Positions 59,005-64,000 of a stretch of 64,000 nucleotides of DNA are shown here, in pieces. The stretch is from positions 558,001 through 622,000 of the forward strand of contig NZ_CP042163.1 of the NCBI RefSeq assembly GCF_007725405.1, in the 5' to 3' direction. Positions within the stretch are counted from its first letter, which is position 1. Each line of letters begins with the position of its first letter. Below the pieces are notes generated by a model, which saw only the letters and a list, made by a program, of their open reading frames with translations, did not search any database and was not told the DNA's origin. The position numbers and the translations under genes are program-made. The stretch comes from Shouchella miscanthi. Its GTDB lineage: Bacteria; Bacillota; Bacilli; Bacillales; Bacillaceae_D.

Positions 59005-59033
59005 TTGACAGTTTTGGTTTTTATATTTATGAT
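59005..59033 (+). promoter_or_regulatory. Sigma-A promoter of the aminotransferase-reductase operon
   Basis: TTGACA (59005-59010) and TATGAT (59028-59033) are exactly 17 bases apart, near-consensus. The GTG start of the first gene is 59 bases further on. Confidence 0.85.
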
Positions 59034-59091
59034 ATTTTAAATAGTAGGTCAATTCTTTTTTTTGAAATAACATTTGAGAGGGGAAGCTTAT

Positions 59092-61806
59092 GTGAAAACG
59101 ATCAATCCTTCAATTTCCAAGATTATGACCATTTTTCATATGGATAAGACCTATATGAAAGGAAGGCGCAATCGGCTTTATGATGCGAATGAAACTGAAT
59201 ATGTGGACTATACCTCACAATACGGAGCACTACCTCTTGGTTACAACCCTGAAGAAATATGGCGGAGTATTAAGACTTTTAAAGAAAATCAATACCCAAG
59301 TTTGTGTCAGCCATCAGCCCCTTTTTTTGCAGAAGAATTAGCTATCCAACTAACTAACCTTTTTGTTGATGATCTTAATATTTGTACATTTGCACAAAGT
59401 GGTGCGGAATCGGTAGAAGCAGCAATAAAGTTAGCAAGAGCTTATTCGAAAAAAGAGAAAATTCTTTCTTGTCACAAAAGTTTTCATGGAAAAACACTTG
59501 GGGCCTTATCCGCTACTGGGCAAAAAGTGTATCAAGAGCCGTTCTTTATTCACCATGAATCCTATCCTAAAATTCCTTACAATGATCTTCAAAGCTTGTT
59601 AAAAGTGTTGGAAACGAGTGGGGACGAGATTGCTGCGTTCATTGTCGAACCAATACAAGGTGAAGGTGGCGTTAATATCCCGGACGCTGAATACCTATCA
59701 AAAGCCATTGCTTTGTGTCATTCCTACGATGTATTGGTCATTGTGGATGAAATTCAAACGGGTCTCGGTCGATTGGGCAATTGGGCGGTGACATCGGAAG
59801 AGAAGCTGTTGCCAGACATTGTTTTGTTATCGAAGGCGTTAGGTGGAGGGTTAGTACCGATCGCAGCTTGTATTAGTCGAGAAGTGCTATGGACGGATCG
59901 ATTTGGTTTAAATCACAGCTCTACGTTTGCGAATAACAATTTTACCTCATGCGTAAGTTTATCCTTTATTCAAGCGATAAAAAAACAAGATCATTTCTTC
60001 GAGAATGTGCTTGAACTAGGGGATGAACTTCGACGAAAGCTTGAGCGAGTAAAGGAAAAGTGGCCGGGTGTCATAAAAGAAATTCGAGGTAAAGGTCTTC
60101 TTTCAGCTATAGAGTTTGAGCCAATAGATGCAAGTGATTCCTTCGAAATGGCGAACCTCATTTCATTCGGCGGATATGGGTACATGATTTCAGGCTACTT
60201 ATTAAATGTCCATCATGTAAGGATCGTTCCTTTTTTAAATGATCCATTAACATTGAGGATGCAACCACCGTTGAACGTTGATCGAACCGATATTGATTTT
60301 TTCTGTGAAGCATTTGATCGTTTATGCGAAATCCTATGTAAAAAAGATTTCTATTTATTGTATCGCTATACAGTAGGGGATTGTCGAAAACCAGTTGAAG
60401 TAAACGATTATCGAGACCGAAACCTTCCGATTTTGTCATCAATGGTAGATGAGACGAGTCAGCTAGTAGGTTCGTTCGCGTTTCTTTGTCACTATCCTTC
60501 GACAAATGATTTGATAAAAAATACACCTTCGTTTGAACAGTTTAGTGAAGAAGAGTTAAAGGCCATTTTGAAATGGGAAGCAGACTTCTCCGGTGCAGGT
60601 GTCATTTGTAAATTGCCAGCAATCAAAGGGGCTGATGGCAATTATGCTGAAGGTTGGCTCATTGGCATTACATATGGCGGTGAAGAAATTCTTGAACGCC
60701 CAAAAGAAGAAGTCTTGAGCACGATTAAAGATGGTGTGAAGCTGGCAAAAGAGTTAGGGGCTGATGTCATTGGTTTAGGCGCATATACATCGATTGTTAC
60801 AAGGGGGGGCTATGATCTACTCGATGAGGGTGTCACCTTAACAACGGGGAATACACTCACGATGATTAATGCGACTGAAGCAATGCTAAAAGGAGCGAAT
60901 TTATTAAAGCATCGTGTTGCAGACTCCACTATTGGCGTAATCGGAGCGAACGGAGCTATTGGAAGAATTGGTTCATATCTATTAGCGAGGAAAACGTCAA
61001 AATTGACGCTAATCGGGAAAAATGGCAACAATCCTATTGCAAACTACAAGCGACTAAAGAAATTGGCTAATGGAATTTACCTTGATTGTCTAATGGAATG
61101 CAAAGAAAACACAGGAATTCGCAAGCGGTTGTTAGAGGTTCTCCATACTGCCCAACTGACAGACCGATTTGAAGAAGAAGTATTATTCCTGGATAAGTGG
61201 CTTGATGGTGCGTCTGTTACGAAATCATCTGTTCCAAATGTGATTGATCCAATCGAACGGCTTTTTGAGGAATTAAATGAACGAATTCCTATTAGGTACA
61301 GTGTTTATTTGGAAGAAGAATTAGCTGATATGGATCTCATTCTGACAGCGACGAGTTCAATGAGTGCGTTTGTTCCTGTTCAGTTAATTAAGGCAGGAGC
61401 CGTCATTTGCGATGTGTCTCAGCCTCCAAATGTCGGAAGGGATGTGCAAAAAGAACGGAAGGATGTTCTGATTATTGAAGGAGGACTTGTTCAGTATGCT
61501 GATCCAATTCGATTCGGACAAAACTTAGGCTATGAAGCAGGTCAGAACTTAGCTTGTTTGTCAGAGACGATGTTGCTTTCACTCGATCAAGCGAGTAAAA
61601 GTTATGGGATAGGCGGACGAATTCGAATGGAAGACGTGTATTACATTCAACGATTAGCAGAAAAACATCAATTTAAACTTGCAGATTTACAAAGCTTTGG
61701 GAAAAAAGTAACCAATGAAGAGATCTTGAACATTCGAGCAGAAATAGTGCTTCGTCAAGAAGAGATTGCTTATTCGTCTAGTACGATAAAGGAGGCTGGC
61801 AAATGA
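59092..61806 (+). CDS. Class III aminotransferase fused to an acyl-ACP-reductase-like domain
   Basis: Residues 1-430 are a class III PLP aminotransferase: FAQSGAESVEAAIKLARAYS, VIVDEIQTGLGRLG and the PLP Lys248 in LLSKALGGGLVP. Residues about 440-904 resemble the cyanobacterial fatty acyl-ACP reductase: GADVIGLGAYTSIVTRGGYD, TTGNTLTMINATEA and the NADPH loop GVIGANGAIGRIG (615-627). A Cys at 773 (VICDVSQPPNVG) is near, but not clearly at, the catalytic Cys of that enzyme. Together the halves would reduce an acyl thioester to an aldehyde and aminate it, as PigE does with the domains in the opposite order. GTG 59092 follows GAGAGGGG. The stop overlaps the next start (ATGA). Confidence 0.88.
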   Translation: MKTINPSISKIMTIFHMDKTYMKGRRNRLYDANETEYVDYTSQYGALPLGYNPEEIWRSIKTFKENQYPSLCQPSAPFFAEELAIQLTNLFVDDLNICTFAQSGAESVEAAIKLARAYSKKEKILSCHKSFHGKTLGALSATGQKVYQEPFFIHHESYPKIPYNDLQSLLKVLETSGDEIAAFIVEPIQGEGGVNIPDAEYLSKAIALCHSYDVLVIVDEIQTGLGRLGNWAVTSEEKLLPDIVLLSKALGGGLVPIAACISREVLWTDRFGLNHSSTFANNNFTSCVSLSFIQAIKKQDHFFENVLELGDELRRKLERVKEKWPGVIKEIRGKGLLSAIEFEPIDASDSFEMANLISFGGYGYMISGYLLNVHHVRIVPFLNDPLTLRMQPPLNVDRTDIDFFCEAFDRLCEILCKKDFYLLYRYTVGDCRKPVEVNDYRDRNLPILSSMVDETSQLVGSFAFLCHYPSTNDLIKNTPSFEQFSEEELKAILKWEADFSGAGVICKLPAIKGADGNYAEGWLIGITYGGEEILERPKEEVLSTIKDGVKLAKELGADVIGLGAYTSIVTRGGYDLLDEGVTLTTGNTLTMINATEAMLKGANLLKHRVADSTIGVIGANGAIGRIGSYLLARKTSKLTLIGKNGNNPIANYKRLKKLANGIYLDCLMECKENTGIRKRLLEVLHTAQLTDRFEEEVLFLDKWLDGASVTKSSVPNVIDPIERLFEELNERIPIRYSVYLEEELADMDLILTATSSMSAFVPVQLIKAGAVICDVSQPPNVGRDVQKERKDVLIIEGGLVQYADPIRFGQNLGYEAGQNLACLSETMLLSLDQASKSYGIGGRIRMEDVYYIQRLAEKHQFKLADLQSFGKKVTNEEILNIRAEIVLRQEEIAYSSSTIKEAGK

Positions 61807-62972
61807 GTGGAGTCGATACTATGCAGCGAACTCAAGCACCATCGGTAGAAGATAAGCTTAAAGAAAGTATTTATCAAGATGAGTGGCTTTTATACACAAC
61901 GAGTGATGAGGATTCGGATTCGGAAATAAGAGCACTTGATATTCAAAGAGACGATGTTGTTTTGTCTGTTACAGGCAGTGGTTGTCGAAGTTTAGCTCTA
62001 CTTATAAAGGAACCGAATAAGCTGATTTCAATTGATGCCAATCCTTATCAGAACTTTTTACTCGAACTTAAAATAGCAGCGATTCGGCATTTTAAAAGAG
62101 AGGACTGTTTAGCGTTTTTTGGTATAACGGAAAGTGAGAACCGCAAAGAGATGTTTCAACAGTTAAAAGAAGATTTATCCGAACAAGCACAAACATTTTG
62201 GGTTAGGCACATTGAAAAGATTGACACAGGATTTATTTACTTAGGTAAACATGAGATGTTCTACAAAAAGTATATGGGTTCATTTTTGTTTCGTTTTAGA
62301 CGGAAACAATTCAAAGAATTATTGGAATGCGAGACGATTGAACAGCAAAGAGACTATTACGAAAAAAACTGGAATAATTTTTTATGGAAACGAGCGGTTA
62401 AGCTGTTGAGTCAAAGAGTGTTCTTTGAAAAATTCTTAGGTGATCCAAGCTATTTTAATCAAGTCAAGAAAGACTTTTCCATAGGTGATTATTTATTGTC
62501 GAGGTTTGAACATACCTTTAAACACCATTTGGTCAAAGACAATCACTTTCTTACCTTTCTATTTTGTGGGCAATATCTAAATGAGAAGGGTCTTCCTGTC
62601 TATCTACTAGAAGAGAATTATGACATTATCAAACACAATCTTCATCGAGTCGAGATCGTTACTGACCGGATTGATCCTTATTTAGCATCCTTACCAGCGC
62701 AATCGATTGATAAGTATTCACTTTCTGATATCTCTGGGTGGATTCCGTTAGAAGAGTTTCGCTCTATTCTTGAGGATGTGAAGCGGACGATGAGTAAGAG
62801 CGGAAGGCTATGCTATCGTAATTTTCTAGCGAAGCGTACTCTTAGTGAGGTGAGTATTTCTGGACTACGGCAAGATCGTGCAATGATGAATGAATTAGAT
62901 GCGGCGGATCGTGCGTTTGCTTTTAGTTTTGAAGTCGCACAAAAGGAGGACACTCATGAATCCGTATTATGA
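61803..62972 (+). CDS. DUF3419/BtaA-like aminocarboxypropyl transferase
   Basis: BtaA-type enzymes move the 3-amino-3-carboxypropyl group of SAM to an acceptor, diacylglycerol in betaine-lipid synthesis. The 389-residue protein shows the SAM-site segment DVVLSVTGSGCRSLALL and LISIDANPYQNFLLELKIA, then the helical DUF3419 body. A late DKYSLSDISGWIPLEEF and GRLCYRNFLA close the Rossmann core. AAAGGAGG precedes the ATG, which overlaps the upstream stop. No BtaB N-methyltransferase is in the window, so the product may be non-betaine. With the upstream enzyme making an amine, the acceptor may be an amine rather than a lipid alcohol; this is inference. Confidence 0.87.
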   Translation: MSGVDTMQRTQAPSVEDKLKESIYQDEWLLYTTSDEDSDSEIRALDIQRDDVVLSVTGSGCRSLALLIKEPNKLISIDANPYQNFLLELKIAAIRHFKREDCLAFFGITESENRKEMFQQLKEDLSEQAQTFWVRHIEKIDTGFIYLGKHEMFYKKYMGSFLFRFRRKQFKELLECETIEQQRDYYEKNWNNFLWKRAVKLLSQRVFFEKFLGDPSYFNQVKKDFSIGDYLLSRFEHTFKHHLVKDNHFLTFLFCGQYLNEKGLPVYLLEENYDIIKHNLHRVEIVTDRIDPYLASLPAQSIDKYSLSDISGWIPLEEFRSILEDVKRTMSKSGRLCYRNFLAKRTLSEVSISGLRQDRAMMNELDAADRAFAFSFEVAQKEDTHESVL

Positions 62973-64000
62973 AGTTGAATGGTATGATGATGAAACAGAC
63001 ACTCGGGTTTTTATTGTAATTGATCAATTAATAGGTGGATTAGCTGCTGGAGGCATACGAATGAGTCCAACGGTAACAATGGAAGATATTCGTAGTCTTG
63101 CTCATTTGATGACGAAGAAAAACAGTGTGATGGGCATTCCACTTGGTGGTGCAAAGATAGGGATTGTTGGTGACCCGGAAGGTGTTGATAAAGAAGAGAA
63201 ATTAAAAGCATTTGGTCGCATGGCAGAATCTTTATTAAAAACAAAGCTTTTAATTGGAGAAGATATGGGAATATCCAGCCAAAACGTCAAATCAATCTAC
63301 GAATCCATTCAATTTAATCCAATTGAACTGGTTGCTCAAATAAGAAAACAACAAGGAATGCACATCCAGATGCCTGAAGGGAAAAGTATTGATGACTTAT
63401 TAAGTGAAGAGTTTATGGACTACCTTGCTGGCTTTGGTCTAATGGAGGCAATGGAAGAGGCTGCTCAACTGATAAATCTTGATCTGAACCAAGCTCAGGT
63501 CGGACTTCAAGGTTTTGGAACGGTGGGTAGTGGGATTGCGATGCTTTTGCTAGAGAAAGGGTCAACTATAACAGCGATTAGTGATGCCCATCGTTGTATG
63601 TACAGACAAACAGGTTTTTCTCTTGCTGAACTTCAAGTATTAAAAGAGCACGGAGGAGTCATACAGCCTGAGCTATTTAGAAATGTTAAGATCGTACCAT
63701 CTAGCGAGATCGTTGGATTACCTGTAGATATTTTTATACCTGCATCGATTTCAAATGCTATACACAGAGACAATGCAGGTAGTTTAAAGGCTAGCCTCAT
63801 TGTGGAAGCTGCGAATTTTCCAACAACGAATGAAGCAGAGCAAATTTTGTTGAAGATGCATAAGATGATCCTCCCTGATTTTGTTGTGAACGCCGGATCG
63901 GCGACAGGTTTTGGCTTACTAATAACAGGGCAAGCAGAGTATCAGGATGTCTTTCAAGCATGTGCTCAGCGAATTAGAGAAACAGTGAGAACAATTTTAA
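62956..64000 (+). CDS. Glu/Leu/Phe/Val dehydrogenase family enzyme, cut by window end
   Basis: These enzymes interconvert amino acids and 2-oxo acids with NAD(P)H and ammonia. The active-site signature LGGAKIGIVGDP lies at residues 63-74 with catalytic Lys67. The Rossmann motif is GLQGFGTVGSGIAML, and IPASISNAIHRDN and VVNAGSATGFG follow. ATG 62956 has AAAGGAGG six bases upstream and lies 17 bases inside the btaA-like gene. 348 codons are present and the frame is still open at base 64000. The substrate pocket differs from common leucine dehydrogenases, so the oxo acid is unknown. It may feed the aminotransferase or act on the pathway product. Confidence 0.9.
   Translation, partial: MNPYYEVEWYDDETDTRVFIVIDQLIGGLAAGGIRMSPTVTMEDIRSLAHLMTKKNSVMGIPLGGAKIGIVGDPEGVDKEEKLKAFGRMAESLLKTKLLIGEDMGISSQNVKSIYESIQFNPIELVAQIRKQQGMHIQMPEGKSIDDLLSEEFMDYLAGFGLMEAMEEAAQLINLDLNQAQVGLQGFGTVGSGIAMLLLEKGSTITAISDAHRCMYRQTGFSLAELQVLKEHGGVIQPELFRNVKIVPSSEIVGLPVDIFIPASISNAIHRDNAGSLKASLIVEAANFPTTNEAEQILLKMHKMILPDFVVNAGSATGFGLLITGQAEYQDVFQACAQRIRETVRTIL

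Follow-up and report, generated by a model that had tools for sequence, protein, structure and literature searches.

At the end of the window analysed here, a stretch of 64,000 nucleotides corresponding to positions 558001-622000 of a single-contig 4.25-Mb Shouchella genome, lies a three-gene operon, A-B-C, which on balance probably directs the synthesis of an N-oxygenated alkylamine natural product bearing a 3-amino-3-carboxypropyl arm derived from S-adenosylmethionine (SAM). Gene A encodes an aminotransferase-reductase fusion, gene B a member of the DUF3419 family and gene C an amino-acid dehydrogenase. The operon is followed by genes for a TetR protein, a DUF5367 membrane protein and a flavoprotein, F, hereafter the D-E-F unit; F, located just past the window, appears to shift the interpretation toward an N-oxidised alkylamine. 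In a family of a different order of Bacilli (f202) a VlmB-like diiron protein, X, is found with the set. The membership of the proteins in their families, the conservation of catalytic residues and the linkage of the genes across two orders are direct observations, on which the proposal below builds.

Operon structure and gene linkage across Bacilli

The open reading frames A, B and C are all present, open and co-directional. A and B overlap by 4 nt and B and C by 17 nt, C being taken from its most likely start, and the operon continues past the window. This agrees with the first-pass annotation of this DNA, which had described three overlapping genes behind a near-consensus promoter and an operon running beyond the last position. 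The promoter-like site is the best of 19 in 8.3 kb, a number of sites not above chance (shuffled mean, 22.0), and L021 and L068, relatives that include a 79%-identical homologue, likewise have a TTGACA box before A. The methyl- or acyltransferases which the annotation had suggested might follow were not encountered in the next three genes, these being TetR, DUF5367 and the acyl-coenzyme A (CoA)-dehydrogenase-like flavoprotein F.

DUF3419 is rare in the lineages sampled: 8 of 299 genomes have a match at the level of the order, 3 of 398 at that of the phylum and 12 of 398 at that of the class (the last with the G719 protein as query). The family of G012 has three such genomes in 41, one of them with a weak match (G718) around which none of the genes of the set was found in the stretch inspected. 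Proteins at least 44% identical to B, which define the B subtype, occur in nine genomes: Shouchella G000, G288, G145 and G300, family f12 G012 and G719, and family f202 G923, G762 and G1057. The search for co-occurrence across genomes that had been proposed as a check bore out the grouping. C is located directly after B in 9/9 of these genomes, which span two orders of Bacilli (the G012 contig ends inside C), and A belongs to the same gene run in seven, adjoining B in Shouchella and separated from it by X in f202. Neither A nor C was found in the fetched stretches around ten other Bacillota DUF3419 loci (L023-L026, L069, L070, L149-L152; G789, G821, G962 and G1010 lay outside this comparison), whose proteins are 24-31% identical to B.

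The oxygenase-type partner of the set differs between Shouchella and f202. F is present in all four Shouchella genomes with A-B-C; the six A-less Shouchella genomes tested (G299, G301, G304, G305, G306 and G267; G245, G302 and G303 fell outside the test) yielded only distant F-family matches, the best-scoring at 24-27% identity and with E no better than 3e-14. In G923, G762 and G1057 the gene order is TetR, DUF5367-like, A, X, B, C, a major facilitator superfamily transporter and a histone-deacetylase-like protein. Here the DUF5367-like protein is 28-29% identical (E between 9e-5 and 5e-4), with no Pfam match to DUF5367 for the copy of G923, and only distant relatives of F (23-26%) occur. X was found in these three f202 genomes and in none of the other six of the set, the window genome included. 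One of two unrelated N-oxygenase-type families, F or X, accompanies A-B-C in 7/7 genomes, and their travelling with the set points to N-oxidised alkylamine chemistry. G012 has a homologue of F (48%) too, on a contig other than that of B; encoded with it there are a class-III aminotransferase, an SRPBCC-looking protein (by eye) and a transporter-like protein.

Enzyme families and catalytic residues

The activities originally read from the three genes (acyl reduction with amination, a BtaA-family protein and an amino-acid dehydrogenase) agree with both family and reductase-profile matches. The N-terminal half of A matches Aminotran_3 (Pfam, E 8e-75); in the C-terminal half Pfam returns only Shikimate_DH, below threshold (E 0.008). 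A profile of nine such reductase domains matches, among crystal structures, PigE (4ppm, E 2e-49) and the cyanobacterial acyl-acyl carrier protein (ACP) reductase (6jzq/6jzy, E 2e-31), with Cys828 of A aligned to the Cys of FACFAEAMLL in the latter. In 16/16 aligned rows the nucleotide motif keeps its three glycines, and both the pyridoxal phosphate (PLP) lysine Lys254 (TTG numbering) and Cys828 are invariant. By two tests, an N-terminal aminotransferase with its PLP lysine and a C-terminal reductase with its Cys, A is a predicted TamH-type enzyme.

The order of the two domains had been put forward as a novelty. It has, however, a characterised precedent in PtTamH of the tambjamine YP1 pathway of Pseudoalteromonas tunicata, with the aminotransferase first and the reductase second (PMC9594044), and the same order is found in full-length relatives from Bacillota and Rhodobacterales. 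According to the same source, PtTamH prefers L-glutamate (L-Glu) as amine donor, converts C7-C14 aldehydes to amines, and accepts the acyl group on the TamA carrier but not C12-CoA. A resembles PtTamH and PigE in combining, in one protein, a class-III aminotransferase and an acyl-ACP-reductase-type thioester reductase with catalytic Cys and GxxGxxG motif (PMC9594044); it differs from these tambjamine and prodigiosin enzymes in that no pyrrole genes were recognised around it. The predicted conversion of acyl-ACP to alkylamine by A is likely.

Relatives of A are also found outside the set. Reductase-domain matches occur in 240 of the 398 sampled Bacillota genomes, many of them partial, and partial matches in many of the 398 represent proteins of about 360-400 residues without an aminotransferase. 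B and C were absent from the fetched stretch of 12/12 loci (L071-L082) with a full-length A relative (41-45% identity), and the neighbours common to lone Bacillota A homologues look, where recognisable, like housekeeping genes. A locus search with A alone as query gave S. oshimensis as the sole match; the type strain S. oshimensis DSM 18940 carries all of A to F. On the Rhodobacterales plasmids L032 and L033, A relatives (37-39%) are located near genes for VPLPA-CTERM proteins, with an exosortase in L033; neither B nor C was found in these two stretches.

B is a member of DUF3419 (PF11899, E 1.2e-69, 236 bits against a cut-off of 28). As a stand-in for BtaA we used a Rhizobium DUF3419 protein (L128) with a methyltransferase gene directly after it, to which B is 24% identical. 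In an 18-row tree the B subtype forms one group (92/94), apart from this protein. A phmmer search of B against PDB gave no meaningful match, and the B family profile only a weak methyltransferase-like match in the motif region (best E 0.03). The open-licence literature on DUF3419, judged by listing, deals with algae, plants and fungi.

C matches ELFV_dehydrog (Pfam, E 1e-35) and falls below the cut-off of all eight matching NCBIfam models. Lys55, Lys67 and Asp103 (the Asp of GED), invariant in 6/6 rows, are presumably its catalytic residues; C shares with the ELFV dehydrogenases (GdhA, leucine dehydrogenase, ScyB) both the family and this pair of Lys plus Asp. It differs from GdhA at the AKGG site (aligned to 2tmg), where the C family has AAGG, SAGG or ATGG. 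The KGG lysine, which in glutamate dehydrogenase binds the side-chain carboxylate, is thus replaced in all six rows (AGG in four, TGG in two). Because this lysine is missing, we infer that the substrate of C is an amino acid with a non-acidic side chain, which would fit an alkylated diaminobutyrate.

F carries acyl-CoA-dehydrogenase domains (Pfam), and VlmH has the acyl-CoA-dehydrogenase fold. Among the matches listed for F on plasmids (the best 40 of 79 records, sorted by coverage x identity), the first 14 records are from Streptomyces (11), Nostoc (2) and Paraburkholderia (1). The 11 Streptomyces proteins are 31-37% identical to F, of which they cover at least 94%, and the Paraburkholderia protein is 28% identical; the other records listed reach 21-26% where most of F is covered and 24-32% over shorter stretches, the S. 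clavuligerus record having 32% over 58%. All 11 records with an annotated VlmB-like protein, which are the same 11 Streptomyces records, have an F homologue at most 3 kb from it, several of them being near copies and so representing fewer independent cases. The four Streptomyces records inspected contain DUF2156 (which we take to be the VlmA family), an acyl-CoA dehydrogenase family member, a small protein, a flavin reductase and a VlmB-like protein. Acetolactate synthase, ketol-acid reductoisomerase, a decarboxylase and seryl-transfer RNA (tRNA) ligase are further encoded in L164, which fits valanimycin. The name VlmH rests for these Streptomyces proteins on gene context, and it is with them, not with VlmH itself, that F was compared. 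A 15-row tree unites F with the sequences from two Nostoc and one Paraburkholderia and with four putative VlmH of Streptomyces (92/97), leaving S. clavuligerus and three further rows of acyl-CoA-dehydrogenase type on the opposite side; the long rows of this tree were flagged as unsure. F has 371 residues, the Streptomyces putative VlmH 379-380 and the published VlmH 378 (PMC7347517). F is therefore a putative homologue of the amine N-hydroxylase VlmH. X, in turn, matches PDB 6d9f, 'Putative VlmB homolog' (phmmer, E 7e-20), and in an alignment it shares the residue pattern E, EARH, E, DE-RH with three VlmB-like proteins from Streptomyces.

Proposed pathway and alternatives

In the pathway we put forward, A would reduce a fatty acyl thioester to the aldehyde and aminate it to a primary alkylamine, as PtTamH does. 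F would likely oxygenate the amine nitrogen, most simply to an alkylhydroxylamine, and X might do so in place of F in f202, a role which is less clear because VlmB is known to oxidise hydrazines (PMC11705231). B could plausibly transfer the aminocarboxypropyl group of SAM to the N or O of the amine or hydroxylamine, releasing methylthioadenosine. C, dependent on nicotinamide adenine dinucleotide or its phosphate, would plausibly act on the alkyl amino acid so formed and most likely turn its alpha-amine into a keto acid, and one possible end is a ring formed when the keto acid closes on the N-OH. The TetR/DUF5367 pair, with the major facilitator superfamily transporter of the relatives, may serve regulation, export or self-protection. 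All these reactions we infer, and least certain among them are which acceptor B uses and in which direction C works. The set would then be a variant of the alkylamine N-oxidation pathways. As the first-pass annotation had stated, no named pathway with A, B and C was found in the open-licence literature (judged by listing). The annotation had also named downstream genes of a known pathway as a sign against a new system; this applies to F and X, whose families belong to the azoxy-type kit, and not to B and C.

Several points weigh against this proposal. The product is a prediction, B has no close characterised relative, and its acceptor is not readable from sequence; the Rhizobium stand-in row is on a long branch (6.6) with its placing flagged as unsure. 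Nor do the nine genomes represent independent cases: G012 and G719 have an identical B protein, G000 and G288 are one species, and some of the nine are close relatives. F and X never occur together in the set and, because of this and of the hydrazine oxidation by VlmB, may do different jobs. Since a palindrome and a TTGACA box stand in front of the TetR gene itself, DUF5367 and F probably form a second unit, outside the A-B-C operon, and no VlmR-type flavin reductase was found near F. In an earlier tree, which included a very long row from G719, F fell on the side of that row, in an unsettled position. G719 itself retains B-C-DUF5367 in a genome where neither a reductase domain nor an F ortholog nor X was found, which suggests that its B-C acts on another substrate or that the cluster has decayed. 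Finally, the C profile scores best against glutamate dehydrogenases (2tmg, E 3e-54) and lower against leucine, tryptophan and phenylalanine dehydrogenases.

This last result has a bearing on an alternative scenario, in which C stands off the product path and replenishes, by reductive amination, the amino donor on which the aminotransferase of A draws. The preference of PtTamH for L-Glu (PMC9594044) would suit such a role. Nevertheless, the KGG lysine of glutamate dehydrogenases is absent from C, and G719 retains C with B although no A reductase domain was found there; we consider this scenario possible, with perhaps the best prospects among the alternatives, and still unlikely.

A true azoxy (N-N) product seems a shade less probable than that. 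In this case B and C would replace VlmA, a tRNA-dependent transferase, and VlmO, the membrane enzyme of the N-N step, and an alkylhydroxylamine and the SAM-derived aminocarboxypropyl unit would flank the N-N bond of a long-chain relative of azoxybacilin. Azoxybacilin is 2-amino-4-(methylazoxy)butanoate, with antifungal activity on record. The VlmH-like F of Shouchella and the VlmB-like X of f202 are features shared with the Ady and Vlm systems (azodyrecin, valanimycin), and the proposed succession of fatty aldehyde, amine and hydroxylamine in azodyrecin biosynthesis follows the same logic (PMC9379638). Furthermore, Paraburkholderia phymatum pBPHY01 has, within 12 kb, homologues of A (33%), VlmO (55%), VlmA (41%) and VlmH (35%), the last three relative to the L164 proteins. 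Because these homologues lie together, an A-type enzyme can be placed within a predicted azoxy-type cluster; VlmB was not found at this cluster. Azoxy clusters have in common VlmH/VlmR, VlmA, VlmB and VlmO (PMC9379638). In contrast, tblastn with the L164 proteins as queries (E<=1e-3) detected no VlmA, VlmO or VlmR in the window or at the loci compared (L003, L068, L111, L022, L162, L146-L148), whole genomes lying outside this search. A DUF3419 protein and an amino-acid dehydrogenase occur instead, F and X are not together, the window genome is without X, and no second nitrogen source is evident. As VlmA and VlmO went undetected at these loci, we do not term the product azoxy.

The zwitterionic lipid and the metallophore suggested by the first-pass annotation fare worse. 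BtaA, which we take to be a DUF3419 protein, would be of the same Pfam family as B, and A would yield long-chain amines, so that B could be imagined to build a betaine-lipid-like headgroup. However, unlike in BtaA/BtaB systems, no BtaB-like or other methyltransferase is present among the operon and D-E-F genes, the partner of B being C, and the Rhizobium DUF3419 gene is directly followed by one. B is also distant from the Rhizobium protein in the tree, with the reservation on that row given above, and N-oxygenase-type families co-occur with the set instead; a membrane lipid is accordingly judged improbable. A nicotianamine- or opine-type metallophore, for which SAM-derived aminocarboxypropyl chemistry is used (PMC10491745), is the least probable of all, given that B is DUF3419 and C of ELFV type instead of NAS/CntL with an opine dehydrogenase, that neither the operon nor the D-E-F unit showed a recognisable opine dehydrogenase or metal-linked gene, and that BtaA is apparently not homologous to NAS, CntL or MccD (PMC10491745).

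We tentatively raise a further scenario, itself rather unlikely: a route to aliphatic N-N or cyclic N-O products that draws on SAM and dispenses with tRNA, in which the DUF3419 protein would alkylate an alkylhydroxylamine and, with the dehydrogenase, build either an amino acid resembling azoxybacilin or a ring of the N-alkyl isoxazolidine/pyrazolidine type. We know of no enzyme set that makes such a ring.

Should the favoured N-oxygenated alkylamine reading hold, an alkylhydroxylamine would be joined to an amino-acid unit without an aminoacyl-tRNA, and DUF3419 would have a second role, in small-molecule biosynthesis, beyond that of BtaA in betaine lipids, the only one described in the literature consulted. 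The comparison, moreover, links TamH-type fatty-amine synthases with VlmH-type proteins in both Bacilli and Paraburkholderia. The cluster is found in culturable Bacilli, and its product could be searched for by mass, as a fatty amine or hydroxylamine heavier by 101 Da.

Feature coordinates and further observations

The positions of the features are collected in table 1. For A, the GTG start behind GAGAGGGG is more likely than the TTG.

Table 1. Features of the A-B-C locus, numbered from the first nucleotide of the window; extended numbering continues past its end
Feature	Position	Strand	Remarks
Promoter-like site TTGACA-17-TATGAT	59005..59033	+	consensus match only, 11/12 positions
Ribosome-binding-like GAGAGGGG	59076..59083	+	8 nt before GTG 59092, read from sequence
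Gene A, class-III aminotransferase fused to acyl-ACP/thioester reductase	59092..61806	+	alternative start TTG 59074
A reductase-domain query (residues 430-910)	60361..61803	+	Rossmann motif GANGAIG; invariant Cys828 in ACLSET
Gene B, DUF3419 (BtaA-like) putative SAM aminocarboxypropyl transferase	61803..62972	+	motif TGSGCRSLALL...SIDANPYQN
Gene C, Glu/Leu/Phe/Val-type amino-acid dehydrogenase	62956..64000, continuing to 64110	+	
TetR gene	genome 622214-622809 = extended 64214-64809		beyond window
DUF5367 membrane protein	genome 622849-623223 = extended 64849-65223		beyond window
F, VlmH-like / acyl-CoA-dehydrogenase-like flavoprotein	genome 623242-624357 = extended 65242-66357		beyond window

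A perfect palindrome, TTAGTTATATAACTAA, precedes the TetR gene (L003 8176-8191) and is found at this place in 6/6 Shouchella loci compared, regardless of A-B-C; it is the probable TetR operator. We rejected it as an operator of A, given that it stands before TetR with or without A-B-C. The only other such site in the 18-kb locus (at most 3 mismatches) lies inside A. DUF5367, of which no mention was found in open-licence literature, was considered as a stand-in for VlmO and rejected because its sequence has no histidine; in VlmO two histidines and two aspartates are reported to be essential (PMC11705231).

In f12, B-C, in G719 together with DUF5367, are located directly downstream of ComP/ComA-like genes (L111 4310-11272 in G719; L022 in G012), ComP and ComA being recognised by eye, and G719 also has a ComQ-like gene, called from a polyprenyl-synthetase match. 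Thus, B-C of this lineage may be under quorum-sensing control.

Other gene runs came to light during the comparison. The Nostoc sp. C052 plasmid L167 has in one run a nitric-oxide-synthase oxygenase, a desaturase, a class-III aminotransferase, an SRPBCC protein and a VlmH-like protein, a candidate for another N-oxidised alkylamine cluster. At L023-L026 and L150-L152 another DUF3419 lineage is found beside acetyltransferase-like genes and a heme-oxygenase-like protein (by eye), possibly a further pairing of DUF3419 with an N-oxygenase. On Rhizobium and Shinella plasmids (L036, labelled from annotation; L130 and L132, by eye) DUF3419 occurs with ketoacyl synthase III, an NAD(P)-dependent oxidoreductase, a metallo-hydrolase and a CoF-synthetase-like ligase, which may represent a lipid or signal cluster of unrecognised type.

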